DNA of 60,019 nt from Halobellus captivus (GTDB lineage Archaea > Halobacteriota > Halobacteria > Halobacteriales > Haloferacaceae): positions 106,437 through 166,455 of the forward strand of contig NZ_VJXQ01000001.1 in NCBI RefSeq assembly GCF_007655485.1, written 5' to 3'. This document shows, piece by piece, positions 21,782 through 49,463 of the stretch. The translations under genes were made by a program, and so were the position numbers. The first letter of the stretch is position 1. Each line of letters opens with the position of its first letter. Under the pieces are notes generated by a model that saw nothing but the letters and a program-made list of their open reading frames with translations, was not told the origin of the DNA and did not search any database.

Positions 21782-21795
21782 ATGGGCGCTGCAGG
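21782..21795. repeat. Left attachment site core (attL)
   Basis: ATGGGCGCTGCAGG here is identical to 49388-49401, where it forms the 3' end of the tRNA-Arg gene. After a short interruption, GGATTTGAAC (21801-21810) recalls the next part of the tRNA T-arm. The integrase gene ends 52 bases further in. Confidence 0.8.
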
Positions 21796-21846
21796 TTTCT
21801 GGATTTGAACTATGCGCTACCCCTTCGATACCGAGTTGTCTACTAA

Positions 21847-22905
21847 TCATTCTTGGAAAAACCTCCATCGTCGATTTGCCTTCTCGCGCCTCGAAGCGCG
21901 ATCATAGTGCTTGTCGAGAACCTGTTCAGACGCGTCCAACCGATCCGAAACCGCCGCTCGAGGAACCCCGTCGTTCCGATACTTCGTCACCCGAGCCTTC
22001 CGCGCGTCGTGCGGAGACCGCGACGACGGGCACTTACTCTTATGTAGGAACGACGTCGCCTCGCACGTCTCCGGATCCCGATCGTGCGGACACTCCTTCC
22101 CAATGAAACACGGCCGCGTCCATCGATAGAACGAATCGCGGATACTCCCACCCGACGCACGGCCGTAACTCGTCGTCACCAACGGAGCACGTCCGTACTC
22201 GTCGAGAACATCCTTCCGCGGGCCATCGATATACGACCGCAGCACCTCCGCCACGCGCTCAGTGATCCGATTGAAACGCGCGCCCTTCTCATCGTTCTTC
22301 AGCGGCGTCTCAGACTCGGGCCGGTGCTTGTAATCGAGGCCAGGCTCCGGGCTATCAAGTTCGACGTCACCCAAATCGAGCGCGCGGATCGCACCTACGC
22401 GAGCGCCCGTATGCCAGATCAACGTCCAAACGACGTGATCACGGCTCGCATACTCATAGCGACCGAGCCAATCGAGGATATCGAGAACGCGATCCGGGTC
22501 AATCGTCGAATCAGAAACCTCCTCAGCATCCGACAGCACCGGGAGCGCGACCTTCTCGTACAGATCCTCCGGGACCGCCTCGATCTGAGCGCAAAACCGA
22601 AGGAACGACCGGACCGTCGCGAGCGCCGAATGGAGTGTCTTCGGCGCGATCTCCTCGTCCATCCCTTTCGAGTAGCCGCCCTCGCGACGCCAGACGCGGA
22701 ACTGGTAGAGATCCCGGCCGGTGAGATCGTTCATATTATCGATCCCACCCTCCTCACGACACCACTCGACGAACGCCCGCAGGTGACTCCGATGCGACGT
22801 CTGCGTCCACGCCGCGGAATCGTCCTGCATCGCCTCGAGGTGGAGATCGCGCGCTTCGGAGGGAGTGATCGGGACGAGGTCGTCCTCACGACCCACCCGA
22901 GTCAC
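21847..22905 (-). CDS. int: Tyrosine recombinase (integrase)
   Basis: 352 residues from GTG 22905. An N-terminal SAM-like DNA-binding domain (to about residue 125) precedes the catalytic domain. The catalytic set can be placed: Arg169 (in H-T-G-A-R-V-G), a lysine near 204, His299 and Arg302 (in S-P-H-D-A-R), His333 and the nucleophile Tyr334 (in D-K-H-Y-D). Cysteines 266, 272, 281 and 292 form an unusual insertion before the HxxR box and could bind zinc. It presumably joins the element at the tRNA-Arg site: it ends 52 bases from attL. Its start overlaps the upstream small gene by 20 bases, so it is the last gene of a five-gene overlapping operon. Confidence 0.92.
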   Translation of the reverse strand: MTRVGREDDLVPITPSEARDLHLEAMQDDSAAWTQTSHRSHLRAFVEWCREEGGIDNMNDLTGRDLYQFRVWRREGGYSKGMDEEIAPKTLHSALATVRSFLRFCAQIEAVPEDLYEKVALPVLSDAEEVSDSTIDPDRVLDILDWLGRYEYASRDHVVWTLIWHTGARVGAIRALDLGDVELDSPEPGLDYKHRPESETPLKNDEKGARFNRITERVAEVLRSYIDGPRKDVLDEYGRAPLVTTSYGRASGGSIRDSFYRWTRPCFIGKECPHDRDPETCEATSFLHKSKCPSSRSPHDARKARVTKYRNDGVPRAAVSDRLDASEQVLDKHYDRASRREKANRRWRFFQE

Positions 22906-23062
22906 CCCCGCCGATCTCCGTGTATTCCACCGCGTGATCAGTGCGCTTCCGATGGACGATCTCGTTCACTGCCGCGAGAACGCGATCGCCCTCGACGATC
23001 TGCTCGAAGGGGCATCCGTGACAGACGACGTGATAGACGTCGTCACCGGGTCTCTTACTCAC
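22886..23062 (-). CDS. Small zinc-finger-like protein beside integrase
   Basis: 58 residues from GTG 23062, too short for most gene callers. It contains Y-H-V-V-C-H-G-C-P-F-E (CxxC) followed by two histidines near residues 37 and 43, a pattern seen in small haloarchaeal zinc-finger proteins that commonly sit beside integrases. It overlaps the gene before it (stop 23055) and the integrase after it (start 22905). I infer an accessory role in integration or excision. Confidence 0.65.
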   Translation of the reverse strand: MSKRPGDDVYHVVCHGCPFEQIVEGDRVLAAVNEIVHRKRTDHAVEYTEIGGGDSGGS

Positions 23063-23252
23063 AGTGAACCACCTCGGCTATCTCTCGCTGGTAGGTCCGG
23101 CACCAGCGACAACAGCCGTCTTCTCCGGTAGCAGCCTCACGGCCACAGAGACCGCAGCTCTCGGTCGGAATCGTGACGGCATCGGCGTTAAAGTCGTCTC
23201 CGAGGTAGCGGCGGGCAAGACGCTCTTTTTCGCCCCCGAGCCGATCACTCAC
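23055..23252 (-). CDS. Small cysteine-rich protein of the integrase operon
   Basis: 65 residues from GTG 23252, overlapping the upstream gene's stop by 8 bases. The middle carries C-G-L-C and C-C-R-W-C separated by about 13 residues, a likely treble-clef or ribbon zinc site, plus a basic segment E-R-L-A-R-R-Y-L. It is probably a DNA- or protein-binding accessory factor. A longer in-frame reading from 23435 is rejected because it overlaps the real upstream gene. Confidence 0.6.
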   Translation of the reverse strand: MSDRLGGEKERLARRYLGDDFNADAVTIPTESCGLCGREAATGEDGCCRWCRTYQREIAEVVHCE

Positions 23253-23859
23253 GCGATTCACCCCACGGCTTACACGGCGTGTCGTTCGGATGGATACACC
23301 CGCACCCGGCGCAGGTGATGATCTTCCCCTTCGGGGCTTTCGAGGTTCGGCCGCCGTCAGTGACAAGCCTCGAGTGTTCCGCTCTCTCGACGTCCACGCG
23401 CTCGGAGAGCCAACCCATTTGTTCGCCGATCCCACCGAGATCGTTCGTCTGAAGCGGGAACGTCACGGTCGGATCAATCCCCGCCGAGAACGCCTCGCGC
23501 TCGTGAAGGGGATCGATGTACCTCCGACCCGCGAGCACGACGATCTCCTCGACGTCGACGCCCTTCCCGATCTCGTTCGCGATCCAGTCGATCAGCGACA
23601 TCCCGACCTCGTGCGCCAGGACGTCGAGCTCGTCCTCGTCGAGATCATCGATGTTCGTCTCGTACGGATCGATCACTCGATCAGGGGCGATGAGCCCGTG
23701 CTCCGCCGAGAGGACCAACCACGCGTCGCCGATCGTCTCCGCGTACTCGCGCTTCTTCGCGAAGTACGTCGACGTGTACAGATCCGAGGCTGGTGTCGGC
23801 TCGTCGCGCTTCGCCGCGCCACAGCCGACGATCACGAGCTTCTTTGAGTAACCACTCAC
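23245..23859 (-). CDS. DUF6884-like protein
   Basis: 204 residues. The first ~125 form an alpha/beta domain with V-I-V-G-C-G-A-A-K-R near residue 10, Y-T-S-T-Y-F-A-K-K-R and L-S-A-E-H-G-L-I, the pattern I associate with DUF6884, a family frequent in phages and mobile elements and lacking a proven function. The C-terminus has a small C-A-G-C ... C pattern. It overlaps the next gene upstream (23856) by four bases and the next downstream by 8. Confidence 0.7.
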   Translation of the reverse strand: MSGYSKKLVIVGCGAAKRDEPTPASDLYTSTYFAKKREYAETIGDAWLVLSAEHGLIAPDRVIDPYETNIDDLDEDELDVLAHEVGMSLIDWIANEIGKGVDVEEIVVLAGRRYIDPLHEREAFSAGIDPTVTFPLQTNDLGGIGEQMGWLSERVDVERAEHSRLVTDGGRTSKAPKGKIITCAGCGCIHPNDTPCKPWGESRE

Positions 23860-25273: not shown

Positions 25274-26062
25274 TCACGCGTCCTCCGGATCGAAGTTCAT
25301 CACGAGCCGCTCTTTCGCTGACTTCGCAGACCCGGACGTCCCGTTGTTGATGAACCGCTTCTCGTCGCGATCGAGCACGTAGACGTCCTCGAAGCCCTCC
25401 GGCAGATCCTCGTACGAGCAGAGGTAGCGACCGTCGAGATCATCGAGCGCGTCGACAAACGCCTCGTGACTGATCGTGTTGACGAGGTAGTAATCCTCGT
25501 AGCCGACGTACGGCGGATCGCAGTAGAATACGGTCTCGTCGCTGTCGTATTTCTCGAAGAGATCCGCCCAGTCGAGGTTCTCGATGACGACCTCCGCGAA
25601 CCGCTCGGCGAACTCGTCGAGTCGATCGATCTTGTTCGAGTAAGTGAGCGCCCGACTGCTGACTTTCGAGGTGCCAAATCCGGCTTGCTTGCTATACTTG
25701 CTCCCCCACTGCGAGTATCGCAGGTAGAAGAACTGGCCAGCGCGCTTGATCTCGTCCGCCGGGCGGTAGCCGTTGAAGAACTTGTGCGCCCATTCCTCGT
25801 GTAGTTCACGCGAGTAGGGGACGCGATCGAGCCACTCGACGAGCTCCTCACACCGATCACGGAGGACCTCGAAGAACTGAACGAGGTCACCGTCGCGATC
25901 GTTGTAGACTTCGACCGTGCTCGTGCCCGGCTCCTTGTTCGCGAGGACACCCGCCGCACCGCCGAAGACCTCGACGAAACACCTGTGCTCGGGAACCTGT
26001 TCGAGGATCCACGAGGCGAAGCGACTCTTTCCACCCGGATACGGGAAAATCGCGTCGGGCAT
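25274..26062 (-). CDS. DNA adenine methylase (Dam/DpnII type)
   Basis: 262 residues. F-P-Y-P-G-G-K near residue 6 binds S-adenosylmethionine, F-G-G-A-A-G-V follows near 32, and D-P-P-Y near 178 is the catalytic motif IV of alpha-class N6-adenine methyltransferases. No restriction endonuclease is next to it, so it is an orphan methylase that may protect the element or mark its replication. The start at 26062 overlaps the stop of the small upstream gene (TAATG), so translation is coupled. The recognition site cannot be deduced. Confidence 0.92.
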   Translation of the reverse strand: MPDAIFPYPGGKSRFASWILEQVPEHRCFVEVFGGAAGVLANKEPGTSTVEVYNDRDGDLVQFFEVLRDRCEELVEWLDRVPYSRELHEEWAHKFFNGYRPADEIKRAGQFFYLRYSQWGSKYSKQAGFGTSKVSSRALTYSNKIDRLDEFAERFAEVVIENLDWADLFEKYDSDETVFYCDPPYVGYEDYYLVNTISHEAFVDALDDLDGRYLCSYEDLPEGFEDVYVLDRDEKRFINNGTSGSAKSAKERLVMNFDPEDA

Positions 26063-26586: not shown

Positions 26587-27147
26587 TTAAGAGCGGTCAT
26601 ATTTTCCAAGTACGTAGCCGATAATCAATAATAACAATCCAGGAAGGAGCAGACATTGAGGCGAAAGGTTGAGAGCTTGTAATCCAGCCAGAGTTTGACC
26701 AAGTGCTCCTATGGCTAAAACTACTGTAAGTAATATAATGGAACTATTGTTCTGAAGTTCCTTCTCTTTTATTTCCCGTTCATAAGCCACATCAAACCCT
26801 TTCGAGGTAAGTTTAAAATATCCGCTACTATCTTCCTCGATAAGGTCGTGTCCCTCAAGGAATGACAAGGCTGACTTTACTTGCGATTTATTGAGATTCG
26901 TCCGCTCTACTAGTGGATGATCTGAGTCTATAACTGGTGGATCTCCTCGTCCAAAATTTTCCCATTTTGACTCTTTAGAGTATAAAAAGAGTAGAAGGTC
27001 TGCCCAATACTGCTGTTCAATTTGTCTTCCAGGGAGTTGCATTTTCAACATATAATCTACACATCCAGGTGGTTTGAACAATGTTGTGACTCTACTGAGC
27101 GATTCTCCCCACCAATCAGGGCTCACTAAACCGATACGCCCTCCCAC
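26587..27147 (-). CDS. Membrane-anchored winged-helix-like protein
   Basis: Up to 186 residues. The middle (H-P-L-V-E-R-T-N-L-N-K-S-Q-V-K-S-A-L-S-F-L-E-G-H-D-L-I) resembles a winged helix, and two hydrophobic helices close the C-terminus (L-L-T-V-V-L-A-I-G-A-L and L-L-L-P-G-L-L-L-L-I-I-G-Y). The start is uncertain: 27147 overlaps orc1 by 32 bases, and an internal ATG at 27051 would also keep the domain. AT-rich codon use sets it apart from orc1. It is downstream of orc1 and next to the iteron-like repeats, so a role in copy control or regulation is possible. Family not recognised. Confidence 0.55.
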   Translation of the reverse strand: MGGRIGLVSPDWWGESLSRVTTLFKPPGCVDYMLKMQLPGRQIEQQYWADLLLFLYSKESKWENFGRGDPPVIDSDHPLVERTNLNKSQVKSALSFLEGHDLIEEDSSGYFKLTSKGFDVAYEREIKEKELQNNSSIILLTVVLAIGALGQTLAGLQALNLSPQCLLLPGLLLLIIGYVLGKYDRS

Positions 27148-28120
27148 GGCCAGATCCCGATGACTCGACCAACTTGTAGTGCTCTAGCGACTGGAGGTAT
27201 TTCCGACGAGTTGATCTCACCCTCGGATCCGCAACGCGATCCTCGTATCGAGCGTGCAACGTCGACGCGTCGATCTCACTCGCGTCCTTGATGATCTCGT
27301 AGAGGTGTCGTTGATGCGTCCCGAGTGTGTCGACGTGGCGCTCGTGGATCTCCTCGCGGGCGTCCTCACGAATCGGGACGACGTGCTGAACAGTCAGCTT
27401 CTCGTCTCCCTTCTCGACGGCCTCACGGACCGCACGTCTGAGCAGCGTGATCGCGTGGCGGGCGTCCCCGGCGGCGACATCGGCGATGTACTCGACGGCC
27501 TCCTCGTCGACGACGCCCGACGCGAGTCCCGTGTTGATCCGACTCCAGAGAATTTCGACGAGCTCCTCGTGTTGGTACTTCGAGAGTGAGACCGTCGCCG
27601 CGCCGCGGATCCGAGACGCGACGCGGGAGTCCAGGTCTGCAAAGAAATCGTCGTCGTCGACGCAGATTAGGATCAGCGTGAGGTTCGGGATCTCCCAGAG
27701 CGCTTGGATCGTTTGGTCGTCATCGAGGACGTCGACCTCATCGACGATCGCGATGAAATGGTCGTCGAGATGGCGGAGGCGATCGAACATTACACCCGTC
27801 GGCGTCCCCTTCGCCCGGAGATCGTTACCGCGGCCAGCATCGCGTACAAGTGAGAAGACGACCGACGACATCGAGGTTTCGGAGATCGCGTTCACGTACC
27901 CCCAGCGGATCCCGAGGACCTCTTGTTCGAGCTGGCGAACGATGTACTTCGCGATCGTCGTCTTCCCGGCTCCAGAGGGGCCAGTGATAAGAATCGCTTC
28001 CGCGCCGAGACCGTGTACAATCGGCTTCAACTCGCCGGAGAGATGTTGTAGTGAGCCTTCGCGATGCTTGAGTTCTTGGGGGACCCAGTCCTCCCTTAGG
28101 ACGCGGGCGTTTTGAATCAC
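27116..28120 (-). CDS. orc1: Orc1/Cdc6-family replication initiator
   Basis: 334 residues, shorter than chromosomal copies and typical of plasmid or viral paralogues. The AAA+ ATPase has Walker A G-P-S-G-A-G-K-T (residues 47-54) and Walker B I-A-I-V-D-E-V-D (123-130), followed by R-I-R-G-A-A-T-V-S-L and G-D-A-R-H-A-I-T-L-L. The C-terminal ~90 residues form the winged-helix DNA-binding domain. It should recognise the element's origin and load the host helicase, suggesting the element can replicate as a circle when excised. Upstream (28121-28249) is an AT-rich gap. Confidence 0.93.
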   Translation of the reverse strand: MIQNARVLREDWVPQELKHREGSLQHLSGELKPIVHGLGAEAILITGPSGAGKTTIAKYIVRQLEQEVLGIRWGYVNAISETSMSSVVFSLVRDAGRGNDLRAKGTPTGVMFDRLRHLDDHFIAIVDEVDVLDDDQTIQALWEIPNLTLILICVDDDDFFADLDSRVASRIRGAATVSLSKYQHEELVEILWSRINTGLASGVVDEEAVEYIADVAAGDARHAITLLRRAVREAVEKGDEKLTVQHVVPIREDAREEIHERHVDTLGTHQRHLYEIIKDASEIDASTLHARYEDRVADPRVRSTRRKYLQSLEHYKLVESSGSGRGRAYRFSEP

Positions 28121-28577: not shown

Positions 28578-29126
28578 ATGGTTGACGAAGATACCGAGGG
28601 AACTTCTCTCCTCGATCTCGGATCAGACTCCGTTAGTCGTGAAGATTTGGATGACACTCGGCAGAAGGACCCCGACGCCTTCACCGACAAATACCGTGAG
28701 AGTGTCGCCCTCGATCAAGTAAGAGGTGCTGTCCGGCAGTACGGGGAAGACGGAATTAGCGTCTCAATGATCGCGGATCTCCTCGAAATGTCGAACGAAA
28801 CCGTTCGGAAGCATCTCGAGACCCTGTGTAGTCTTCGCGAGGTGTACAAGCAAAAAAAGAACAAGCAGATGTACTTGTACTATCCAAACGGAAAGCCGCT
28901 CCACGGACTCGGGACCCGTCGAATCGAATCTGACGATGGGGATACGATCATAGAAATGCAACTGGCTCAGGGGCGGAGAGAACAGTTATTCGTGCACGTT
29001 ACTGAAAAGCGGTTCTCGCTGCTTGAAGGAGAGCGAACAGAGGGAGCTGTGATGTTCCCGCTGAACAAGCTTGACGAGTTCTTCGCAGAGCTCGACGACC
29101 TTGCTGATGAGGTAGACCAAGAATGA
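28578..29126 (+). CDS. Winged-helix protein of an unrecognised two-gene module
   Basis: 182 residues. Residues of roughly 43-105 form a helix-turn-helix with wing (V-R-G-A-V-R-Q-Y-G, I-S-V-S-M-I-A-D-L-L-E-M-S-N-E-T-V-R-K-H-L-E-T-L, then Y-L-Y-Y-P-N-G-K). The remaining ~75 residues look like a separate beta-rich domain (M-Q-L-A-Q-G-R-R-E-Q-L-F-V-H-V). It overlaps the next gene by ATGA, so they are translated together. A palindrome CGCTTAAGCG (28558-28567) just before the start could be an operator. GC is lower than the element's structural genes. Family not recognised beyond the fold. Confidence 0.65.
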   Translation: MVDEDTEGTSLLDLGSDSVSREDLDDTRQKDPDAFTDKYRESVALDQVRGAVRQYGEDGISVSMIADLLEMSNETVRKHLETLCSLREVYKQKKNKQMYLYYPNGKPLHGLGTRRIESDDGDTIIEMQLAQGRREQLFVHVTEKRFSLLEGERTEGAVMFPLNKLDEFFAELDDLADEVDQE

Positions 29127-30526
29127 GCGTTGCCAAACCATTCCTGACACACGACTCGGACGGACTCGAACAGTACCGTATCAGCACTGTTGACGATATC
29201 AAAGCACCAGCGTTCTCACCCGAGATCAAAGGAGCCGAGGATCTTCACGTGGTGCTTCAGAATCTGGGAGCTCTCGATGATAACACCCCCATTACGGTTC
29301 CCGGCTACACCTGGGAATCTCTCTGGACTAAGAACGAGTTTTCCCGTTACGATATCGAGATCCGTAACCTCCACGACCACCCGTTCGTTTACTACGAACC
29401 TCCGGAGCTGTTCCGGTACAAAATGCCGGGGGTTCTGAAGACGTATGCACTTCGTCGGAGCCGAGGGAAGGTGCGGAAGTTCAATAAGAAGCTTCGCTCA
29501 GGGGATGTTGATGGTGCAATAGAGGTTCTCCCAGAGTTCTTCCAGCCGTTTATGGAACTTCAGCGCGAGAGTCTTCTCGGCTCAGAAGACGAGGCGGTAC
29601 CTCCTCGCTTGGAAGATACCGACGGAAAACTCGTGGATGGCTGGCGGGACTCACGAGCGGACAACGGCTACGAAGACTACTTCCGTCAGATCGTCGAGGA
29701 CGCCTCCTCGACGCGAAACGCCCACGTTGTTCCCCCGGTCCCTGCGGTCCTGGGAAGTAGTGATCGATATGTACTCCAGCGGATGCACGGCAGTAACGTG
29801 GCGATGTCCGCGATGTGTGATGCCGCAAACAAAGGATTTGGAAATCCAGTCTACCCCTATTACCACGTCTACGTGGACTATGGGGTATTGAAATCGAATA
29901 GCAGGAACGACGGAAAAATCATCGACAAGATCGAGAAGGGGCTCGACAACCACAGATTCGCAGGTGTCGCACTGACCTTCTCGGGGTACGAGAAGGTTTG
30001 GGACAATCAGCTCGGAATACGGCTGAGTAAGTTCGTCCAAGACGTGAGTGACATCGCTCGGGCACGGAATACTCCGCTAATCTTGCCCCGGTCAGGCTGG
30101 TACGGACTGCACCTATCCGACAAAGGGGCTCACGGGTTCTCGTCTCTCTTCAACGGCAAAGAGAGATATACACGCCGAAGCGGAGGTATGCCGAAGGACA
30201 GCCCTGGACTGAAGTACGGCAAGACACCTCTGTACGGAGAAGCGGTCGAAATTGACCTCCACGACTTGGATACCTATCTCCGGAATAACCAGGGACAGGT
30301 GACTAAGATCTCTGGTCTACCGAGTCAACCTCATAAGCATAATACTGCAGCATCAGGCGTCAAAGACCGATTCGGGAAGGCTCGTGACTTCAGGATCAAG
30401 TTCTCGAAACCCCGTCGGTTGATCCACGCAGAAGAATGCCGTGAGGTACGAGAGAGTCTTCGGGGCGGTCAGCGGGATCCCGCTCGACGCTATCTTGAGC
30501 GAAGCGAACACCCGGATCTCTCGTAA
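29123..30526 (+). CDS. Large protein of an unrecognised two-gene module
   Basis: 467 residues, cytoplasmic, without signal peptide or membrane helix. I recognise no family. The central part (about 190-345) shows alternating predicted strands and helices (H-V-V-P-P-V-P-A-V-L-G, F-A-G-V-A-L-T-F-S-G-Y, P-L-I-L-P-R-S-G-W-Y-G-L-H-L-S-D-K-G-A-H-G-F-S-S-L), compatible with a TIM-barrel-like enzyme core with invariant-looking H, K and G residues. The C-terminus is very basic and polar. The ATGA overlap with the winged-helix gene implies a joint function, for example a regulated or DNA-targeted enzyme in defence or superinfection exclusion; this is speculation from context. Confidence 0.6.
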   Translation: MSVAKPFLTHDSDGLEQYRISTVDDIKAPAFSPEIKGAEDLHVVLQNLGALDDNTPITVPGYTWESLWTKNEFSRYDIEIRNLHDHPFVYYEPPELFRYKMPGVLKTYALRRSRGKVRKFNKKLRSGDVDGAIEVLPEFFQPFMELQRESLLGSEDEAVPPRLEDTDGKLVDGWRDSRADNGYEDYFRQIVEDASSTRNAHVVPPVPAVLGSSDRYVLQRMHGSNVAMSAMCDAANKGFGNPVYPYYHVYVDYGVLKSNSRNDGKIIDKIEKGLDNHRFAGVALTFSGYEKVWDNQLGIRLSKFVQDVSDIARARNTPLILPRSGWYGLHLSDKGAHGFSSLFNGKERYTRRSGGMPKDSPGLKYGKTPLYGEAVEIDLHDLDTYLRNNQGQVTKISGLPSQPHKHNTAASGVKDRFGKARDFRIKFSKPRRLIHAEECREVRESLRGGQRDPARRYLERSEHPDLS

Positions 30527-32667: not shown

Positions 32668-32742
32668 ATGCACGGGACCAGACGGGGTGAGCCCCTGACC
32701 GAGACCGACCGAGGCGAACAGACAGACGCGGGGCGGCCGTGA
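32668..32742 (+). CDS. Possible 24-codon leader peptide
   Basis: A short open frame (M-H-G-T-R-R-G-E-P-L ...) begins five bases after the 13-bp inverted repeat. Its TGA (32740-32742) overlaps the GTG at 32739 that opens the spike-like gene. The arrangement could couple translation of the large gene to the leader. Evidence is positional only; the peptide has no recognisable sequence. Confidence 0.25.
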   Translation: MHGTRRGEPLTETDRGEQTDAGRP

Positions 32743-34517: not shown

Positions 34518-34940
34518 ATGTCGTCGAGTGACGACTACACCGCTTCGGACGCACTCGAGGACGGGACGGAAGGCGTCGACGAGCGGGGAGTTCCTGGGTA
34601 TGCTCAAGCCGCGGTGATCGGTGGGATTCTCGCCTCACTCGGCTATGCGATCTCGGACCTGATCCTCTCGGTTCAGGGAACGCTGTTCGCTCCCGTGCGG
34701 GCCTTCGCGGATGGTATGGCGACGTTCATCGGAGGGACGCTCGGCGCGCCGATCCTGATCACCGACGCGGGCGCGGAAACCTCAGCGAGTTCCTTCACGA
34801 GCGGGACAGCGGCGCTACTCGGACCGGCCGCGTTCCCGGTGGCGGTGGCCGTCTCTGTCGCCGGGATCCTCGTGTTCCTGTGGTTCCTCTCGAACAACTC
34901 GATCACGCCGTGGTCGATTCTGGGAGACGAGGACGAGTAA
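34518..34940 (+). CDS. Small membrane protein, paralogue 1
   Basis: 140 residues with a polar acidic N-terminus (~28 residues) and hydrophobic segments at about 29-52, 55-85 and 105-128. The end L-L-G-P-A-A-F-P-V-A-V-A-V-S-V is shared with the next gene product (L-F-G-P-A-A-F-P-V-A-V-L-V-A), and both carry an L-x-G-A-P loop, so the two arose by tandem duplication. It starts directly after the spike-like stop. A matrix or membrane role in a particle is inferred. Confidence 0.7.
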   Translation: MSSSDDYTASDALEDGTEGVDERGVPGYAQAAVIGGILASLGYAISDLILSVQGTLFAPVRAFADGMATFIGGTLGAPILITDAGAETSASSFTSGTAALLGPAAFPVAVAVSVAGILVFLWFLSNNSITPWSILGDEDE

Positions 34941-34942
34941 CG

Positions 34943-36421: not shown

Positions 36422-36422
36422 G

Positions 36423-40400: not shown

Positions 40401-40615
40401 TTGATTTCGAAATTCGATTTTTCGAGAGAAAATCGAAAAAGAACGATCGAACCCGTGGGTCGAGATCGGGATCCACACCTCTCGCGGCTGACAGACCGAT
40501 CGCGAGCGCGCGATCCGAGCGCCTCGCACGCGCGCGTAGCTTCAACTACTACGCCGACCACCCCCCTACCCCCCTGAATAGCGACGTCGGCGAACGATTC
40601 GGTGATATGATATGA
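40397..40615 (+). CDS. Small basic protein between ATPase and adhesin
   Basis: 72 residues, strikingly rich in R, K and S in an acidic proteome (F-F-E-R-K-S-K-K-N-D-R-T-R-G-S-R-S-G). It starts at ATG 40397 overlapping the ATPase stop, and its own stop overlaps ATG 40612. The double coupling favours a real gene, perhaps a nucleic-acid-binding peptide, though a non-functional bridge between neighbours is possible. Confidence 0.55.
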   Translation: MIDFEIRFFERKSKKNDRTRGSRSGSTPLAADRPIASARSERLARARSFNYYADHPPTPLNSDVGERFGDMI

Positions 40616-43479
40616 CAGACTCAAAGAGATTCATCGCGACGCTTCTCGCGTCGTTGATCGTGGTTTCGAGTCTCGGCGGCGTCGCGATCTCGCCAGCCGG
40701 AGCAACGAACAGCGGACCCGCGGGGATGCTCGCGCTCGGGGACGCGCAGGTGTCCGAGGACATAGCCGCGGGCGCTGACGTGCCTATCCGCGCGAGCGAC
40801 CTCGAGGGCGCGATTTACGCGAGCGAGCACGCGAGCACGCTCGAGGTCGTGCTCACGACGCCCGAGCGGGCGGACGAGTATATGGGCGAGAACGCGAGCG
40901 TGCTCGCGGACGACGAGATCGCGATCGTCCTCCGTGACGACGAAGTCCACGAGGGCCGCGACGTCGCCGTCGACCTTGACGTCCTCGAGGCCGGAGTCGG
41001 GTTCGTGCCGAAGGTCGCGTACGGGACGCACGAGGACGGGGAGCGCTGGGAATCGGCGATCGAGCGCGACGGGATGGTCGGAACCTTCCACGTGCCGCAC
41101 TTCTCGACTAATACGGTCTCGTTCACGGGCGGCGTCTCGATCAACGCGAGCCCAGCCACAGACGGTTCGACTTTCGAGTACGAGCTCTCGGACATCAATG
41201 CGGTGAGTGATCCGATGATAAATTTGACAGGGAATACCACAACGGAGAACGAGTCTGTGTCGGGATCTGTGTCGATCGGAGATCCCTTTACCGTGGATGT
41301 TGAGGGCAATGCCGATCCGGAGGGACATACGATGCCGGATTCTCAAATCTCCGTAACCGGCGGGACCGTCTCGGAACGCATCGCAACGGACACACAGGGA
41401 TCGGTTACCATAGATTCCTCGGAGGTTAGTTTTGACTCGCTCGGACGTGTCTCTGGGGATCTTTTCGTGACTGGGGGATCCTGCAAGTGTGACGCGAGTG
41501 ATGTAACTATTACACTGTCCGTCGATGGGACTCAAGTCGCGTCGAACAGTTGGGAGAAAGTTTACGATGGACAGTATGAGATTGGCTATCCGGAATACGA
41601 TGGTGGCGTGGGTTTCGGTTTTGATGTTCCGGATGAACACCAAGATTTTGACTCGGCAACGGTTTCCTACTCGTTGGACAACCCACCGTCAGAAGACTAT
41701 TACCCTCAATTTACGGTTAATGGGGTATCAACTGCTCCGGATAACGTCGCTGTCTCTGTCAATGGACTAGAAAGCGCCTCTCTCGGCGACCTTGACGATG
41801 GAGAGACAAAGACCACGGCGCTCGATTTGTCGACAGGTAGTAACGATATCAATATCACGGGATCGGTGGGAACAGTCGATTACACGCTTGATTATATAGA
41901 AAGGACTGTTACGGAAAATCCCACAGTCGAACTTAACGGCGAGACCGTCTCGCACTCGGGAACACTCTCCGATGGCGAAACGACTACTCTATCGCTCGAT
42001 TCGTCGGCACTCGAGGAGGGAACGAACCGAATCAATGTCTCTGTCGGCGACGGTACACTCTCCGATGGTTCACCAGATCCGAGCGTCGGGCTTGAGTACA
42101 GCCACGAGGCCACCGACGAGCAAACCGTCGACTACTCCGCGGAAGCGTGGAGCGAGCGCTACAACGTCTCGCACACGTTCGGCGATGCGAGAGAGGATCC
42201 GACACTGACGATCCCGTTCGACGGCGAGGTAGTCAATATTGGTTCCGTAGAGGTCCGCCGAAACGGTTCCTCTTGGGAGCTCCCGAAAGAGTGGGTTCAC
42301 GACAATACGACGCTGATCGTCGGCTTCGATCCCGTCGAGAGCTCGGAAACGCTCGAGGTCCGGGCGACCGGTCGGAAGGTCCGAACGCTGAACGGTGAGA
42401 TCACGGTCACCGACCCGACCGTCGAGGGCGACTCGCTCAACTCGGAGATTGAGATCATAGACCGCTCGGAGGACTTCGCGATCGACGTCTCCGGATCGGA
42501 CCGGATTCACTACACGTCAGAAGAGTCCTGGTCGGCCTCCCCACACGTCATCGTCGACTCCTCGGGAGGTCAGGAGCTCCGACTCCCTGATGCGTCGGAG
42601 GGCTCAACAACGCGCGTGCGTACGGCTCCGCTCAACGTGGTTCCCGAGTCGGGCGAGTCGGAGGTCGTGATCGAAGATCCCGACGAGCCGCGGTTCAAGA
42701 TCCGCGAGGGCAACACGACCGGCGCGTCGAACGTCGACGTGACCTATTACGACACGCTCTCCGGTGAGCGCTACGTTCTGTGGAGCGAGACCCAGGATCG
42801 AGAGATCGACGCCGACCGAGCGGAGAGCCCGGTCGACTTCACGACGGACGGGAACGCCGAGACGTACACGATCCGGCAGATGGACGCACCTGGTTCCGGA
42901 GTCGGTGGCACCGCTCCACCCCGGACTCAACAAGCTGGCGCGCCGCTCGTGTTGGTCGTTCCGGCCGTGGGTCTCTCCGTGACGGGGCTCTTTTGTGCCG
43001 GACGTCGGTTCGGCGGCGCGAGCGGGATTCGAGGGAACGCGCTGCTCCTCGTCGGCTCGACAGTCGTCGCGATCGCCGCCGTCGAGCTCGTTGCGCCGGG
43101 CACGCTCTCGTCGATGTTCTCGACAGTCGTGTTCGCGGTCGGGGACTCGATCGCGGGCGGGATCGGAGCGGCCTTCGCCGCGATCGCGGTGTTCCTTGCA
43201 CTCTGGCAGATCCAAGCCCGGACCCGGGCGACAATCCCGTGGTGGGTGATCGGTCCCGCGATGGGGATCTCAGCGATCGCCGCGCTCGAGGCGATCCGAC
43301 CGGGATCGATTCTCGGGGCGCTCGAAGTCGTGCTCTCGGAGTACGGCGGGCTCGTCGTCCTGGCGACCATCGGGCTCGTCGGGTATCTGATCTACCAGCG
43401 GCGACAGACCGCACAAGCCGAGGCGTCGACGCCGGATACCCAGGTCACGCTTGATCTGAGCGGGAACAGCGAGGAGTGA
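40612..43479 (+). CDS. Giant adhesin-like membrane protein
   Basis: 955 residues. A signal peptide (M-T-D-S-K-R-F-I-A-T-L-L-A-S-L, cleaved after A-G-A) precedes a ~740-residue exported, acidic, beta-sandwich-like region with many N-x-S/T sequons. A T-A-P-P-R-T-Q linker leads to about five C-terminal hydrophobic helices (residues of roughly 778-800, 810-830, 850-875, 885-905, 915-932). Codons for about residues 200-500 (41.2-42.1 kb) are clearly lower in GC and less acidic than the ends, as if the middle had been exchanged. A C-K-C pair lies near residue 295. Probably a receptor-binding or S-layer-interacting protein on the cell or particle (inference). Confidence 0.78.
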   Translation: MTDSKRFIATLLASLIVVSSLGGVAISPAGATNSGPAGMLALGDAQVSEDIAAGADVPIRASDLEGAIYASEHASTLEVVLTTPERADEYMGENASVLADDEIAIVLRDDEVHEGRDVAVDLDVLEAGVGFVPKVAYGTHEDGERWESAIERDGMVGTFHVPHFSTNTVSFTGGVSINASPATDGSTFEYELSDINAVSDPMINLTGNTTTENESVSGSVSIGDPFTVDVEGNADPEGHTMPDSQISVTGGTVSERIATDTQGSVTIDSSEVSFDSLGRVSGDLFVTGGSCKCDASDVTITLSVDGTQVASNSWEKVYDGQYEIGYPEYDGGVGFGFDVPDEHQDFDSATVSYSLDNPPSEDYYPQFTVNGVSTAPDNVAVSVNGLESASLGDLDDGETKTTALDLSTGSNDINITGSVGTVDYTLDYIERTVTENPTVELNGETVSHSGTLSDGETTTLSLDSSALEEGTNRINVSVGDGTLSDGSPDPSVGLEYSHEATDEQTVDYSAEAWSERYNVSHTFGDAREDPTLTIPFDGEVVNIGSVEVRRNGSSWELPKEWVHDNTTLIVGFDPVESSETLEVRATGRKVRTLNGEITVTDPTVEGDSLNSEIEIIDRSEDFAIDVSGSDRIHYTSEESWSASPHVIVDSSGGQELRLPDASEGSTTRVRTAPLNVVPESGESEVVIEDPDEPRFKIREGNTTGASNVDVTYYDTLSGERYVLWSETQDREIDADRAESPVDFTTDGNAETYTIRQMDAPGSGVGGTAPPRTQQAGAPLVLVVPAVGLSVTGLFCAGRRFGGASGIRGNALLLVGSTVVAIAAVELVAPGTLSSMFSTVVFAVGDSIAGGIGAAFAAIAVFLALWQIQARTRATIPWWVIGPAMGISAIAALEAIRPGSILGALEVVLSEYGGLVVLATIGLVGYLIYQRRQTAQAEASTPDTQVTLDLSGNSEE

Positions 43480-43481
43480 GG

Positions 43482-43799
43482 ATGTCCGCGATCATCGAGG
43501 CCCTTCGTATCCTCGGGCTCCGGGGGAGCGCTATCGGGGCCGCCTCGCTGGTTCTCGTGGCGTTCTATCTGTGGCGGGCGAAACGGATCGGCTCGCGCGC
43601 GGCGACGATGAGCGCGGCCGCGATCGCGTACTCGGTGGCGAGCCTGGTCGTGCTCGCGCTCGTACTCGCGCTCGGATGGGCGGACCCAAACCCGGGTGTG
43701 GCTATGGAGCACGTACGCGAAGGCGCTTCGGTCGCGATCGAGCGCGGAACCGAGCCCGCGCGCCGCGTGTTCCGGTGGGTCGTGGAGATACTGTTCTAA
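43482..43799 (+). CDS. Small membrane protein closing the surface-protein operon
   Basis: 105 residues from ATG 43482, with a GGAGTGAGG ribosome-binding sequence just upstream. Two hydrophobic helices at about 18-32 and 45-66, then an amphipathic tail ending R-V-F-R-W-V-V-E-I-L-F. Starts two bases after the adhesin stop and is the last gene of the run. Not recognised. Confidence 0.68.
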   Translation: MSAIIEALRILGLRGSAIGAASLVLVAFYLWRAKRIGSRAATMSAAAIAYSVASLVVLALVLALGWADPNPGVAMEHVREGASVAIERGTEPARRVFRWVVEILF

Positions 43800-43990: not shown

Positions 43991-44530
43991 ATGTCTACCC
44001 ATTCATCCTCGCGTACGGAGGACGAAGAGCCACCATCACGGAGGGATGGCTTTACATCACGTATTCGAGGCGTTCCGCCGAAGCAATGGATCGCTGCCAT
44101 TCTCACCGGGTTCGTCGGCAGTATCCCCCTTGGGCTAATGATGCAGTACGGTAATCCAGAACCGCTCATTGCGCTTGCACTCCCGAATATGTACGGCTTA
44201 GCTGGTCCGAACCTCCTGCTTGGGTGGGCCATTCATCAGTTCCACGGGGTTGCCCTTGCAGTCCTCGTTATTGCAGCCGTCCAGTGGTCGCCCATCCGAT
44301 CACTCGCAACGACGGTTCGTGGCGCACTCGGATTGGCCGTTCTCGTCGGCGTCGTGACCACCGCACTGCTTTCTGTCCTGCTGATGCCTCTGTGGCTCCA
44401 AGCCGTCGGGTATCCGCACGCGCCAGTATTCCCCGACTTGACGATGCCGGAGAAGGTATGGAGTGTCGGCGGCCACATCGTCTACGCGCTCCCGGTGACC
44501 GTCGGGTACGCCCTGTTGGCGAGGGAGTAA
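43991..44530 (+). CDS. Four-pass membrane protein (cargo)
   Basis: 179 residues. A polar N-terminus of ~30 residues is followed by hydrophobic segments at about 33-50, 70-95, 108-135 and 158-178 with G-x-x-x-G-like packing (V-G-S-I-P-L-G, G-L-A-G-P-N-L-L-L-G-W). Histidines lie within the membrane region (A-I-H-Q-F-H-G). It resembles uncharacterised haloarchaeal DUF6789-like proteins; this is tentative. Co-transcribed with the next gene, which starts three bases after its stop. Confidence 0.65.
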   Translation: MSTHSSSRTEDEEPPSRRDGFTSRIRGVPPKQWIAAILTGFVGSIPLGLMMQYGNPEPLIALALPNMYGLAGPNLLLGWAIHQFHGVALAVLVIAAVQWSPIRSLATTVRGALGLAVLVGVVTTALLSVLLMPLWLQAVGYPHAPVFPDLTMPEKVWSVGGHIVYALPVTVGYALLARE

Positions 44531-44533
44531 CTC

Positions 44534-45178
44534 GTGACAGCCATCGAAACCCTCGACTCACTGACGCTCAGTCTCCACATCGTGGCGGGGTTCGTCGCGT
44601 TGTTCGGTGGTGCGGGGGCGTTTCTCACGAAGAAAGGCGGTCTCACGCATCGACGCTTCGGTCGCGCATACGTCTATTCGATGGCGTTCGTGGCGGCATC
44701 TGCCCTCGCCCTCTTCGTCTACGATGCCACGCCGACACGGCAGTTTCTTGCGCTTGTCGCCGTGTTTAGTTTCTACTTCGTGTTCTCGGGCTACCGTGTC
44801 CTCTCGCGGAAGCGACCAGCTGACACACCAACTGGTCTCGATTGGGGCGCGGCCATCACACTCGTTGCCGTCGGCATCGGCCTTCTCGCACTCGGAGGCC
44901 TACGACTCTTGGAGGGAGAGTCCTTCGGTACGGTGATGGCAGTCTTCGGTGGCATCAGCGTGGGATTTGGCGTCCGTGATGTTGGCCTGTTTCGAGACGG
45001 CCAGCCCGAATCGCGGGCGTGGCTGTACGAACATCTTTCCCGGATGGGGGCGGGGTACATTGCGACGGTCACTGCGTTCTCGTCCGTGAATTTCGTCTTT
45101 CTTCCACCAGTTGCCCGCTGGTTATGGCCAACGGTCATCGGTACACCGCTCATCACACTCCTCGTCAGGCGGTACTAA
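44534..45178 (+). CDS. Seven-pass membrane protein (cargo)
   Basis: 214 residues from GTG 44534, with GGGAG just upstream. About seven hydrophobic helices; the first carries L-H-I-V-A-G-F-V-A-L-F-G-G, and the first loop reads K-K-G-G-L-T-H-R-R-F-G-R-A-Y-V, the hallmark of DUF2306-like integral membrane proteins. Function unknown. Composition resembles ordinary chromosomal genes, so this pair may be host cargo. Confidence 0.7.
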   Translation: MTAIETLDSLTLSLHIVAGFVALFGGAGAFLTKKGGLTHRRFGRAYVYSMAFVAASALALFVYDATPTRQFLALVAVFSFYFVFSGYRVLSRKRPADTPTGLDWGAAITLVAVGIGLLALGGLRLLEGESFGTVMAVFGGISVGFGVRDVGLFRDGQPESRAWLYEHLSRMGAGYIATVTAFSSVNFVFLPPVARWLWPTVIGTPLITLLVRRY

Positions 45179-45807: not shown

Positions 45808-45878
45808 GAGTCTTTTGGACTCGTGGCCTTAGCCACACGTTCTAACGGACGATCGGCCTCCCCCCGGCCGATCGTCCG
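45808..45878. other. Three consecutive hairpins in a non-coding stretch
   Basis: GAGTC-TTTTG-GACTC (45808-45822), GTGGC-CTTA-GCCAC (45823-45836) and a perfect 13-bp stem CGGACGATCGGCC/GGCCGATCGTCCG with a TCCCCCC loop (45846-45878) follow one another within 71 bases. No gene overlaps them (45723-46011 is non-coding). They could be an RNA, a transcription end for the operon at 46012 read from the minus strand, or a single-stranded replication or transfer site. Confidence 0.6.
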
Positions 45879-46011: not shown

Positions 46012-47769
46012 CTACTCGGTGACGTCGTCGATCACCCTCCGACGTCGGGCGTCACAGAGCTCATCCAGCGGGCGGCCGTGTCGTTCTTGAGCGAGCTGCT
46101 CGGCGTCCTCCACCCAGTCGGGCTTACTCACTTCTCGCGTCGTCTTCGCCGCTGACGGTCGCCACGAATCGAGGTTCGTGATTCGACGGCGTTCCCCGTC
46201 GATCGTCGTCACCTCCAGGGCGAACCGACGGATCGAACGGTACCGCTCGCGAGCGGCGAGCCGAATCGACCGAATAACCTCGGCCAGATCCTCGCGATCT
46301 TCGGGACGGTACCCGACTTCGAGCGTCTGTTTCACCTTCCCCTCGCTGATGCTCACGTTGTAACGTTGCTTGACCTCAGACCACTTCGAGCGCGCCCGGT
46401 CCTCCACGGCGTCCGCGGCGTTCATCACCGCGTGCTCGACGCTCTCGCGGAACTGTGATTCCGCAGTCCGAACCCGCTTGAGGAGCATCTGCTCTTTGTG
46501 CTTCGAGTCGATGCTCAGCCCGTCGTAGGCATCGCGAACGACGTCCTCACAGCGGTTCACGAACCGGCGAACCGTGCGATACGAGTAGCCCGTCCGATCG
46601 GCGAGCTCGTCCCGCGTGGGACGACCACCGTCGGATATGAGTGAGTCAATAAGATCCCGGTCCGATTCGAGCGTGTTTCCCCAGAGACGCATCACGACGT
46701 GCTCTTGTTCGTCCTCGACGTCGGGCAACGGACATTCAACGAGCTTCACCGATCGGTGCGACTCCGACGTGGCAGAGAAATACTCGTCTGTAACGAATAC
46801 GTCGCCGTCCGCTCGAACGGGAAGGTCCGCCCAGTCGAGATAGTTGTAGAGCGTCGTATCGAGCTCTCGAACCGCTTGGTCAAGCTCACTCCATCGAAGC
46901 GTTTCGTCCGTTCGCTTCGTCTGATAGGAGACTTCGAGCTTCGGGTGATACAGCGCGTCGCCGGGTTCGAACGACGAGGGATCCTCGGGGTAGTAGTGTT
47001 TGATCTCCTTGCCGAGCTGGTGGCCGGGAATGATGTCCCGGGCCCGCTCGTCGTCGACGGTCGTGGTCACGAAGTAGCCCGGAATCTTCGTGTGGTCTTC
47101 GACGTGCTTCCGGTATCCCTGCTGACCGGCCTCGAGCACCGCGTGGGTGCGGGCGATCGGACCATCCGCGGCGTGCAGCGGGCTCGACTTCGAGCGGTGC
47201 ACGCGAACGTAGCGGGCGAGGTCGATGACGTTGCTCATCTCGTGCGGCTTCTCGAAATACCGATACGAGACACCGAACGCGGCCATTGCCGTTTTCACGA
47301 GCTCGAGATATCGCGAGTGTTCGATGTTCGACGCTTGTACCTGAACGTCGATGTACGGCTTTCCGAGGTCGGGTACTCCCTGAATCTTCTTGCCGTCCTT
47401 CGTCATCCCGGGCCACCGAGGCCGAATCGTCATCGTCCCTCCACGAACGCGCTTAGACTTTTGCGCTGGTTCTCCGTCGTACAGTCCGTCCTTCGCGACG
47501 AAGTAGATCCGGAAGAGCGGGACCGACTCCATTCGGTAACTCTCGTGGTCCCACGGATCGACCGGTTGTTGATCGTAGTCCGCGGCGAGCGCCCAACTCT
47601 GGCCTAAGAAATCCATCGTCTCGGTCGGCTTTCCCTCGGTTTTCCAGTCGTCGTACTGAACGCGGATCACCGAGTTGAGCGCGTAGTAGGGATCTAACCC
47701 GTCCTCGTCGAAAACAAAGTGAATATCGGCCTCGTGAGATTGCGGCTCGACGAACTCCCCCGTAGTCAT
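46012..47769 (-). CDS. DUF7845-like element protein with helix-turn-helix
   Basis: 585 residues. The N-terminal ~330 (starting M-T-T-G-E-F-V-E-P-Q-S-H-E-A-D-I-H-F-V-F-D) match what I know as DUF7845, a family almost confined to haloarchaeal plasmids and proviruses. A helix-turn-helix follows near residues 385-425 (T-R-D-E-L-A-D-R-T-G-Y-S-Y-R-T-V-R-R-F-V). The C-terminus is helical and basic. No nuclease or helicase motif is seen; a replication or segregation role is plausible. It overlaps the DUF488 gene upstream by 4 bases. Confidence 0.72.
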   Translation of the reverse strand: MTTGEFVEPQSHEADIHFVFDEDGLDPYYALNSVIRVQYDDWKTEGKPTETMDFLGQSWALAADYDQQPVDPWDHESYRMESVPLFRIYFVAKDGLYDGEPAQKSKRVRGGTMTIRPRWPGMTKDGKKIQGVPDLGKPYIDVQVQASNIEHSRYLELVKTAMAAFGVSYRYFEKPHEMSNVIDLARYVRVHRSKSSPLHAADGPIARTHAVLEAGQQGYRKHVEDHTKIPGYFVTTTVDDERARDIIPGHQLGKEIKHYYPEDPSSFEPGDALYHPKLEVSYQTKRTDETLRWSELDQAVRELDTTLYNYLDWADLPVRADGDVFVTDEYFSATSESHRSVKLVECPLPDVEDEQEHVVMRLWGNTLESDRDLIDSLISDGGRPTRDELADRTGYSYRTVRRFVNRCEDVVRDAYDGLSIDSKHKEQMLLKRVRTAESQFRESVEHAVMNAADAVEDRARSKWSEVKQRYNVSISEGKVKQTLEVGYRPEDREDLAEVIRSIRLAARERYRSIRRFALEVTTIDGERRRITNLDSWRPSAAKTTREVSKPDWVEDAEQLAQERHGRPLDELCDARRRRVIDDVTE

Positions 47770-48386
47770 CGGATCTCACTACCTGACCGTCGGGGATCGT
47801 GACCGAGGACGTCGACGAGCGTACCGAGACCGTACCCGCAGTTCACGCAGACCTTCGTGTACGGCGCTGGTCCGTCGACGAGCTCGTGTTCGCCGGGATC
47901 ACACGCGACCTCGTCGACGCGATGGCCCGGATACTCGTTCTCCTTCGGTGGGAGTGAGACGTCGGTCGAGAACGTCACGGTGCGGGCGTCCTGTAGCCGT
48001 TGTCGGAGGAGTCGACGGTGACACCACCGATCGGACGCTTCCCAGCAGACGAGCCACACGGCGCGCTGTGCGGCTTCCTGTTCGACCGCTTCGAGAACTT
48101 GTTGCGTCGGACCCTTCTCGAGATACTCGTGAAACCGAGCCTCGAAGTCGACACTCTTCCACGCGACGCGACGAGGTTCCTCGTGACCGTCTCGGTCGGC
48201 GGCCTCCTCGACTTTCTTGTAGGAGTCCAGGAGATCGTCCGGCGGCGCGAGCGTCGGGACGTGACGGTCGACGAGCTCCTCCGCCCAATCGGGAAGATCG
48301 CGACGGACGACCGCGAGTACCTTCGACTCGGGAGCGGGCTCGTCGTAGCCGTTCGCCAGCGCCGAGAAGTACGTCGTTCGGATCAC
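47766..48386 (-). CDS. DUF488-family protein with zinc-binding tail
   Basis: 206 residues. The core V-W-L-V-C-W-E-A-S-D-R-W-C-H-R-R-L-L near residue 110 is the DUF488 signature with its C-x-E ... C-H-R residues. The C-terminus adds C-D-P-G-E-H ... C-V-N-C-G-Y-G, a likely zinc knuckle. DUF488 members are suspected nucleic-acid-associated enzymes but have no agreed activity. Overlaps both neighbours by 4 bases in a minus-strand operon. Confidence 0.78.
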   Translation of the reverse strand: MIRTTYFSALANGYDEPAPESKVLAVVRRDLPDWAEELVDRHVPTLAPPDDLLDSYKKVEEAADRDGHEEPRRVAWKSVDFEARFHEYLEKGPTQQVLEAVEQEAAQRAVWLVCWEASDRWCHRRLLRQRLQDARTVTFSTDVSLPPKENEYPGHRVDEVACDPGEHELVDGPAPYTKVCVNCGYGLGTLVDVLGHDPRRSGSEIR

Positions 48387-48904
48387 CGACCGTCACCCCC
48401 GAGGCGGTCGAAGACGTGCGTCCAGGAGAGCCGAGCGAGCGTTCCCTCCGAGCGGTCGATCGAGTACCAGCGATCACGGAGGAGCTCGTCGACGATCGAC
48501 GCGGGGACCACGGCGACGGCCAAGAGCTCGCGGTCTCCGTCGACGTCGTCGTAGACCGACAGCGCGTAGTAGGCACTCGCCTCGAGGAGCTTTGCGTGCT
48601 GTCCGTCGTCGCGACCTTTGAACAGCCACCGTCCCGCGATCGTTTGATCGCCGCCGTTGGACGTCCGGCGCTTCGCGCTCTTCGTCTCGATCTCGGTGCC
48701 GACCTCGAGGAGCGGGACGCCGAACCGGATCGGGAGATCACCGGCGACGGTGTCGGGAGCGAGGACGCTGGTGGTGACCGCGTCGTAGTAGGCGTCGGAA
48801 TCGTCGGCGACGCGAACGGGGCCGAGTGCGTCGACGACTCGGAACTCGACGTCGACGCCGATCTCTTTCGCTCGGGCGACCCGCGGTGAGACCTCGGTGC
48901 TCAA
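48383..48904 (-). CDS. Hypothetical protein, possible PD-(D/E)XK nuclease fold
   Basis: 173 residues, no signal or membrane helix. The segment G-V-P-L-L-E-V-G-T-E-I-E-T-K-S-A-K contains an ExK pair, followed by G-R-W-L-F-K-G ... H-A-K-L-L-E-A-S-A-Y-Y-A-L, an order compatible with a PD-(D/E)XK nuclease core (strand with E-x-K, then helix). The family is not recognised and catalytic assignment is speculative. ATGA overlap with the DUF488 gene. Confidence 0.6.
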   Translation of the reverse strand: MSTEVSPRVARAKEIGVDVEFRVVDALGPVRVADDSDAYYDAVTTSVLAPDTVAGDLPIRFGVPLLEVGTEIETKSAKRRTSNGGDQTIAGRWLFKGRDDGQHAKLLEASAYYALSVYDDVDGDRELLAVAVVPASIVDELLRDRWYSIDRSEGTLARLSWTHVFDRLGGDGR

Positions 48905-48944
48905 CGTGGATCACCTCCATAGGAGCGGCCGGTTCCGTTGGGAG

Positions 48945-49214
48945 TCACCCGTCGTCACCTCCTATGATAACGGCCTCAGAAGCGCGCACACGCGGGCCGT
49001 GATTGCGTCCCTGCTGCTCGGCGGGATCGGGGTATCTGACGTGCTGACCAGCGCCGGATCCCTTCTGTAGACGGGCGCGGCTGTCACACGCGAGACAGCG
49101 GTGAACGTGGCCGTCCTCGTCGCCGAAGGTCCGCGCGAAGTCGCGGCTGACGTGTGCGCCACAGTTGTGGCAGTGGGATCTATCTCCAGGTGACCACCCC
49201 GAGAGATCCATCAT
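48945..49214 (-). CDS. Small zinc-finger protein, DUF7563-like
   Basis: 89 residues. C-H-N-C-G-A-H-V-S-R-D-F-A-R-T-F-G-D near residue 15 and C-L-A-C-D-S near 41 form the two-knuckle pattern of DUF7563-type haloarchaeal zinc fingers. The start could be ATG 49214 or 49211; GGTGAG lies upstream. It is the first gene of the minus-strand operon that continues to 46012, and the outermost element gene on this side. Confidence 0.7.
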   Translation of the reverse strand: MMDLSGWSPGDRSHCHNCGAHVSRDFARTFGDEDGHVHRCLACDSRARLQKGSGAGQHVRYPDPAEQQGRNHGPRVRASEAVIIGGDDG

Positions 49215-49387
49215 CGGATCTCACCTCGGGTTTGCGAAACCGACCGCCGGACAGCGCGGACCCGCGGATTGTCACAACATTTGATCGGCTCTGAGAGGAA
49301 AATATCAGATTCCTCAAAACCAGATAACAAGCCTATAGAGTCCTCTAAGGCCAGAATAGCATTAGGGAAGAATCGCCTTGTTAGGCC

Positions 49388-49401
49388 ATGGGCGCTGCAG
49401 G
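49388..49401. repeat. Right attachment site core (attR), inside the tRNA gene
   Basis: ATGGGCGCTGCAGG, identical to 21782-21795. It covers the acceptor-stem 3' strand, the discriminator base and the end of the T-stem, so integration rebuilds a complete tRNA. Confidence 0.8.
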
Positions 49402-49463
49402 ATTTGAACCCGCGACAACTTGGTCCGAAGCCAAGCACTCTGTCCAAACTGAGCTAAGCGCCC
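49389..49463 (-). tRNA. tRNA-Arg (anticodon TCG)
   Basis: Folds as a full cloverleaf on the minus strand: acceptor GGGCGCT/AGCGCCC, D-stem GCTC/GAGT, anticodon stem CTTGG/CCAAG with loop CTTCGGA (anticodon TCG, reading CGA), and T-stem GCGGG/CCTGC with loop TTCAAAT. No intron; CCA not encoded. It is the integration target of the element on its 3' side and stays functional after integration. Confidence 0.96.

Follow-up and report, generated by a model that had tools for sequence, protein, structure and literature searches.

An SNJ2-type integration and replication module flanks an undescribed membrane-protein operon in a tRNA-Arg-integrated element of Halobellus captivus

What is the 27.6-kb segment that abuts the tRNA-Arg(TCG) gene of the haloarchaeon Halobellus captivus, and how might it spread? 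The stretch of DNA analysed here, referred to below as the window, comprises 60,019 nucleotides of contig NZ_VJXQ01000001.1 (positions 106,437 to 166,455, assembly GCF_007655485.1), and a first-pass annotation had proposed that it holds an element integrated in this tRNA gene with boundaries readable to the base. We find that the element is a chimera, with an SNJ2-type replication and integration module at its ends and an undescribed membrane-protein operon in its middle. Its integration, the identity of this module and the replication origin can be regarded as solid.

Site-specific integration at the 3′ end of tRNA-Arg is confirmed, with boundaries to the base. The window holds two exact copies of the 14-bp core ATGGGCGCTGCAGG and no more, at 21782-21795 and 49388-49401; none of 100 dinucleotide shuffles reached two matches (mean 0.00, expectation 0). 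The right-hand copy forms the 3′ end of the tRNA-Arg(TCG), which ARAGORN places, intact, on the minus strand at 49389-49463 as the sole tRNA in the window. The left-hand copy is its exact repeat, and the distance from core to core is 27,606 bp. A tyrosine integrase (int, 21847-22905, minus strand) ends just inside the left core, its stop codon lying 51 bp inward. The repeated core, the intact tRNA, the placing of the integrase and the extent of the element all stand as first described. The sequence TTTCTGGATTTGAAC, which follows the left core at 21796-21812, also repeats ATTTGAAC, the T-arm sequence found after the core in the tRNA; at the left core this repeat comes after a 7-bp interruption, and it may be a remnant of an originally longer attachment (att) site.

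A comparison with empty sites in relatives, which had been suggested as a check, bears out these boundaries. The tRNA-Arg could be located in 16 of the 17 genomes of the genus, and a 100-bp profile was built from the left side of ten such congeneric loci. Against this profile the outer left flank of the element (21682-21781) ranks first of the 119,838 100-mers in the window, with a score of 27.9. This lies within the range of 25.9 to 57.2 given by nine of the ten profile loci when each was left out in turn, the tenth (L077) being unrecognised by the others. The inner right flank scores -61, and the inner flanks of filled sites are at background. Element-type sequence is found at the tRNA-Arg position in five other congeners (G348, G391, G095, G217 and G126). 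One of these, G095, provides an independent match, since it carries a different, 14.5-kb element (C11, about 754868-769341) bounded on both sides by the same exact core, and over 92 bp its outer flank shares 86% identity with the empty site found in another congener, G393. The integrase of this second element is 65% identical to that in the window, making the tRNA-Arg site a shared hotspot.

The chromosomal flanks differ in their conservation. To the right, synteny next to the tRNA (GHMP kinase, cysS, trxB) is kept in nine of ten examined congeners; in one congener trxB lay outside the stretch examined. In the window, a 480-residue Tat (twin-arginine translocation)/lipoprotein-like protein (49828-51270, minus strand; RRRLIQLGALGLSTGIAGC) is encoded between the tRNA and this kinase gene; it matches no Pfam or NCBIfam family, and the congeners examined have no homologue at the same place. 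To the left, the expectation of the first-pass annotation that copA would lie beside tRNA-Arg in empty relatives fails: copA adjoins tRNA-Arg in no congener. In the window copA (18650-21304, minus strand) adjoins the left core and is one of three copies in the genome, the other two being 82-85% identical. The gene at 13313-15532 lies on the same side of the tRNA in other species, but 22-106 kb away, implying that the left side of the window is a variable region. This left side may itself be a further insertion or rearrangement.

The genes at the two ends of the element belong to the module of the temperate betapleolipovirus SNJ2. The published criterion for an SNJ2-type integrase is an identity to the family of 30% or more that covers 60% or more of the protein (PMC8371274). 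The 352-residue window integrase shares 55.6% identity with IntSNJ2 over 99% of its length, 58.9% with the integrase of HHPV4 and 58.8% with that of Halfgib1 (tblastn). Its catalytic residues R169, H299, R302 and Y334 are intact, and are conserved across SNJ2, Harhisp1, LSV-48N and relatives. The short (14 bp) att site at a tRNA 3′ end, with tRNA-Arg restored, is a further trait of this integrase type. At the other end lies the gene for a Rep-Arvir protein (PF25227/DUF7845; 46012-47769, minus strand), the family described as the rolling-circle initiator of SNJ2 (PMC13107129). The Pfam match to DUF7845 (E 3e-112), a central winged helix-turn-helix and a conserved catalytic KHYY motif at residue 257 identify it, and the Tyr283 and Lys281 of SNJ2 numbering are invariant across all 20 aligned Reps. 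It is 46.9% identical to the Reps of HHPV3 and HHPV4 and 43.8% to that of SNJ2 (tblastn).

This correspondence with SNJ2 extends to the smaller genes. Three of them accompany rep on the minus strand in the SNJ2 order, namely z206 (47766-48386; gp21 orthologue, profile E 7e-51), z2 (48383-48904; gp22, 2.5e-37) and z3 (48945-49214; gp25, a CxxC protein of PF24444, 3e-31). An Orc1/Cdc6-like protein (27116-28120, minus strand) is the orthologue of SNJ2 gp08. Family profiles searched against SNJ2 give E values of 1e-151 for Int, 5e-129 for Cdc6 (gp08) and 4e-111 for Rep (gp19). Other viruses share parts of this set: HHPV4 and Harhisp1 have the integrase and Rep, Harhisp1 also Cdc6, the origin hairpin described below and the CxxC protein, and Halfgib1 the integrase. 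The lemon-shaped Haloferax virus LSV-48N (PP151251) has orthologues of Int, Cdc6, Rep, z206 and z2.

The replication origin is equally recognisable. About 174 nt downstream of rep, on the same strand, lies the hairpin GTGTGGCTAAGGCCAC (45823-45838), an identical string of which is found downstream of the HRPV3 rep (expected number 0); its core TGGCTAAGGCC likewise lies downstream of the rep genes of SNJ2 and Harhisp1. Mutation of positions 186-196 of the SNJ2 origin abolishes replication (PMC13107129), and TGGCTAAGGCC agrees with this segment at all the bases named in the mutant table of that study (T186, G187, G188, A191, A192, C195 and C196). A perfect 13-bp inverted repeat (45846-45878, minus strand) adjoins the hairpin as a candidate binding site for Rep, giving the arrangement that the bipartite origin model of SNJ2 calls for and that characterises Rep-Arvir origins. 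In several related elements the TAAG loop of the hairpin is kept while its stems are re-paired (GTGGC/GCCAC, GTGCC/GGCAC, GTACC/GGTAC and GCCCC/GGGGC).

Could the element nevertheless be a decayed, immobile remnant? We consider this the least probable of the explanations weighed here. The stretch from 23.9 to 25.3 kb has no clear coding, which would suit this reading, but the cores are exact, the tRNA, catalytic residues and origin are intact and all the core genes are open. A close relative in Halobellus rarus, moreover, has central-operon proteins that are 66-91% identical, the figure for the ATPase described below being 91%.

As in the SNJ2 provirus, rep and int lie at opposite ends of the element. 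The integrase gene is directed out of the element at its left end; z3, z2, z206 and rep, encoded on the same strand, are directed into it from the right, with 4-bp overlaps between z2 and z206 and between z206 and rep. The replication operon is therefore broken in the chromosome, and excision would join it into one. For SNJ2 such joining of int and rep by excision has been demonstrated. In the circular genome of LSV-48N, int, z2, z206, a methyltransferase gene and rep are contiguous in that order, and in other members of the family the att repeats again coincide with tRNA 3′ ends, and int lies 40-66 bp inward of them. The circular form would also contain a possible open reading frame of 81 codons spanning attP, its N-terminal part at 21796-21850 (minus strand) and the rest at 49211-49387, with ends that overlap the int stop codon (as ATGA) and the z3 start. 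Reading frames of 47-89 codons that start near the int stop and cross attP would arise in the same way in six other elements. The view that this frame is a proven gene was dropped, as codon-position statistics give it no support and the substitution pattern does not prove coding; we retain it as a possibility because the attP-crossing gene of SNJ2, orf26, is expressed (PMC13107129).

The resemblance to SNJ2 ends at the central plus-strand operon. Whereas SNJ2 is a 17-kb genome with a VP12/VP13/NTPase (nucleoside triphosphatase) structural operon, the 27.6-kb element has an unrelated and larger operon, for which searches of Pfam and PHROG gave no noteworthy match. Its first gene (32739-34517) encodes a spike-like surface protein of 592 residues, m592. 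Residues 191-360 are predicted to form a β-sandwich like that of a carbohydrate-binding module (CBM; fold Z 11.7), with resemblances in structure comparison also to tailspikes and the turret of HFTV1. A Tat motif, TRRTFL, at residue 83 (the true start may be internal) and a hydrophobic helix that accompanies a glycine-rich region at the C-terminus would fit a protein anchored at the cell surface. There follow n140 (34518-34940), a small protein with two hydrophobic segments whose gene immediately follows that of the spike in each of the 19 compared loci; four small membrane proteins, o, p, p3 and q1 (34938-36421); q2 (36420-38162), a multi-transmembrane protein of 580 residues with a secreted N-terminal domain; and r290 (38143-39015), a soluble protein of about 290 residues conserved ahead of the ATPase. 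Beyond the ATPase gene (39012-40400) are t955 (40612-43479), a giant surface protein of 955 residues with a signal peptide and C-terminal transmembrane segments, and u107 (43476-43799), a small protein with two transmembrane segments. One or more relatives of t955 have FG-GAP or polysaccharide-lyase/CBM-like domains.

The Walker A (GKPGSGKS, residue 162) and Walker B (ILFDE, residue 327) motifs of the ATPase, together with a predicted HerA-like motor fold, place it in the FtsK/HerA superfamily as a DNA-translocase-like protein. The predicted structure (mean predicted local distance difference test, pLDDT, 68) matches HerA with Z 13.3 and a root-mean-square deviation of 3.7 over 222 residues, ahead of VirB4 (Z 11.6), the packaging NTPase B204 of STIV2 (Z 11.1), TrwB (Z 11.0) and TcpA (Z 9.8). 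PDB sequence searches with ATPase, spike and giant-protein profiles gave chance-level matches or none.

The ATPase family is present in 69 of 391 Halobacteria genomes, about one in six. The genes for the spike, the 580-residue protein, the 290-residue protein and the ATPase occur together in all 19 loci compared and the giant-protein gene in 17. The tRNAs found beside relatives vary (Arg, Pro, Lys, Val, Ala, Ile and Met), and rep lies at the end that faces the tRNA. On the 163-kb plasmid NZ_CP119803 of Halosegnis marinus (L155, 4343-25103) the spike, n140, 580-residue, 290-residue, ATPase, giant surface protein and Cdc6 genes recur, but here the operon stands beside a type B DNA polymerase, and no match to Rep-Arvir or the integrase was found within the 45 kb examined. 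The same operon therefore moves between replication modules. A polymerase of this type is also annotated in His1. Homologues of the ATPase are detected in Haloarcula marismortui pNG100 and Thermococcus pTN2 (profile probabilities 99.7% and 98.2%), in neither of which were other central-operon genes detected. A plasmid DNA search revealed no near copy of the element, and no member of the operon was found among known phages. Two limited pattern scans of IMG/VR, for the ATPase only, found no relative. The openly accessible articles describe elements such as SNJ2, LSV-48N, apHPV and pT26-2, but no description of this operon was found there.

How, then, would the element spread? We favour, as a probable though far from certain reading, an integrative relative of temperate betapleolipoviruses that leaves cells in a membrane particle. 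The SNJ2-type integrase would recombine attP with the 14-bp tRNA-Arg 3′ end, regenerating the tRNA. Excision, as known for SNJ2, would place int, attP, z3, z2, z206 and rep in one minus-strand operon, and Rep-Arvir could then nick the hairpin at 45823-45838 to start rolling-circle replication. We infer that the plus-strand operon (32.7-43.8 kb) builds a membrane-bound particle from the sugar-binding spike, small membrane proteins and giant adhesin, into which the HerA-like motor would load DNA for non-lytic spread. Several points weigh against this. The central-operon proteins have no detectable relative among the structural proteins of pleolipoviruses, LSV-48N and His1, so that no particle homology lies behind the membrane-particle step, and a HerA-like motor would equally suit conjugation. 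The reading frame spanning attP has no third-codon-position excess, and such a frame would be open by chance in 7-29% of cases per sequence.

Conjugation is the main rival, although we judge it unlikely. Rep-Arvir would double as relaxase of an integrative and conjugative element, with the HerA-like ATPase serving for both coupling and transfer, while a contact-dependent DNA-transfer apparatus would be formed by its membrane and surface proteins. The fold matches of the ATPase to VirB4, TrwB and TcpA suit such a role. Rep-Arvir, moreover, resembles Rep_trans, to which the ICEBs1 relaxase NicK belongs, and certain integrative and conjugative elements contain DUF7845 proteins (PMC13107129). The scanned open reading frames, however, include a single HerA-type ATPase and no recognisable VirB4/VirD4 pair, pilin, pilus or other transfer gene; the ends of the element match those of temperate viruses, and its plasmid relatives are typed as non-mobilizable by PLSDB.

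A further rival, a member of the Pleolipoviridae with very divergent structural genes, would account for the integrase, Cdc6, Rep, helper genes and origin, all of betapleolipovirus type, and for a plus-strand layout of spike, membrane proteins and NTPase that follows a similar general logic. Yet profiles compared with VP1, spike, ORF3 and ORF4 of SNJ2, Harhisp1, HRPV1 and HRPV3 find nothing, and the NTPase match, at 42%, spans just 57 columns; we regard this as improbable. At the sequence-profile level there is no match to a VP3/VP1-like membrane protein or a VP4-type spike. A pleolipovirus spike was likewise rejected for the 592-residue model, as none is named among its 50 best structural matches in the viral library, several of which are nameless, and no profile matches. 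The structural genes of LSV-48N are unrelated, and no ATPase of the element's family was detected in it. A spindle-virus reading was rejected too: n140 and the proteins next to it resemble spindle-virus capsid proteins in their two hydrophobic segments, but their profiles match nothing in LSV-48N, His1 or the PHROGs.

The plasmid-vesicle elements typified by pR1SE (apHPV) also combine membrane and surface genes with a HerA/VirB4-like ATPase. Their cluster 2 (ORF17, 21, 23, 24 and 25) encodes a variable surface protein, membrane proteins and a VirB4/HerA/B204-like ATPase in an order similar to that of the central operon (PMC10818511), and the element might represent an apHPV reduced to this second cluster. 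In the apHPV-like region of pHALXA03, however, the ATPase, spike, 580-residue and giant proteins have no significant profile match to the three large candidate open reading frames tested, nor does the ATPase match the candidates there for the ORF25 family. Hidden Markov models run against the whole 26-kb stretch give only a weak match for u107 (3e-4), and no S8 peptidase domain, a trait of the apHPV ORF6-9 cluster, is present in the scanned frames. The pR1SE reading was set aside, the gene order being alike but no homology to this region being detected, and descent from an apHPV, already disfavoured, seems very improbable.

The remaining genes of the element lie largely to the left of the operon and include cargo. 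On the minus strand these are a DUF6884 protein (23245-23859; Pfam E 3e-31) and a Dam-like N6-adenine DNA methyltransferase (25274-26062, upstream start uncertain). The latter is 81-82% identical to copies in two Halorubrum elements (G207 and G210) whose ATPases are only about 33% identical to that in the window, implying a recent exchange of cargo between elements. On the plus strand are a helix-turn-helix regulator (28578-29126; weak DUF7342) and a 467-residue protein (29123-30526) with no Pfam or NCBIfam match and a 30% identical homologue near tRNA-Arg in a further genome, G219. Between the operon and rep (43991-45178, plus strand) are two membrane proteins, of 179 residues and, DUF2306-like, of 214 residues, which look like chromosomal-type cargo.

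What do these observations mean for the wider family? An SNJ2 integration and replication module is here coupled to an operon without a recognisable viral capsid gene, extending the known sharing of modules between archaeal viruses and plasmids to 27.6 kb, and the circularisation switch of SNJ2 becomes testable in a second, larger system. We suggest tentatively, with a little less than even confidence, that the central operon marks out a class of haloarchaeal viruses or vesicle-borne elements not described before, found in about a sixth of Halobacteria genomes and equipped with a spike, small membrane proteins, a giant adhesin and a HerA-like packaging motor of its own. Its replication modules would be interchangeable, SNJ2-type rolling circle in H. 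captivus and a type B DNA polymerase on the Halosegnis plasmid, and its absence from virus collections would be explained by its genes not being recognised. The ATPase, spike and giant surface protein provide marker genes for this common and apparently unrecorded family, through which a run of hypothetical genes that recurs across many haloarchaeal genomes would become a testable particle or transfer system.

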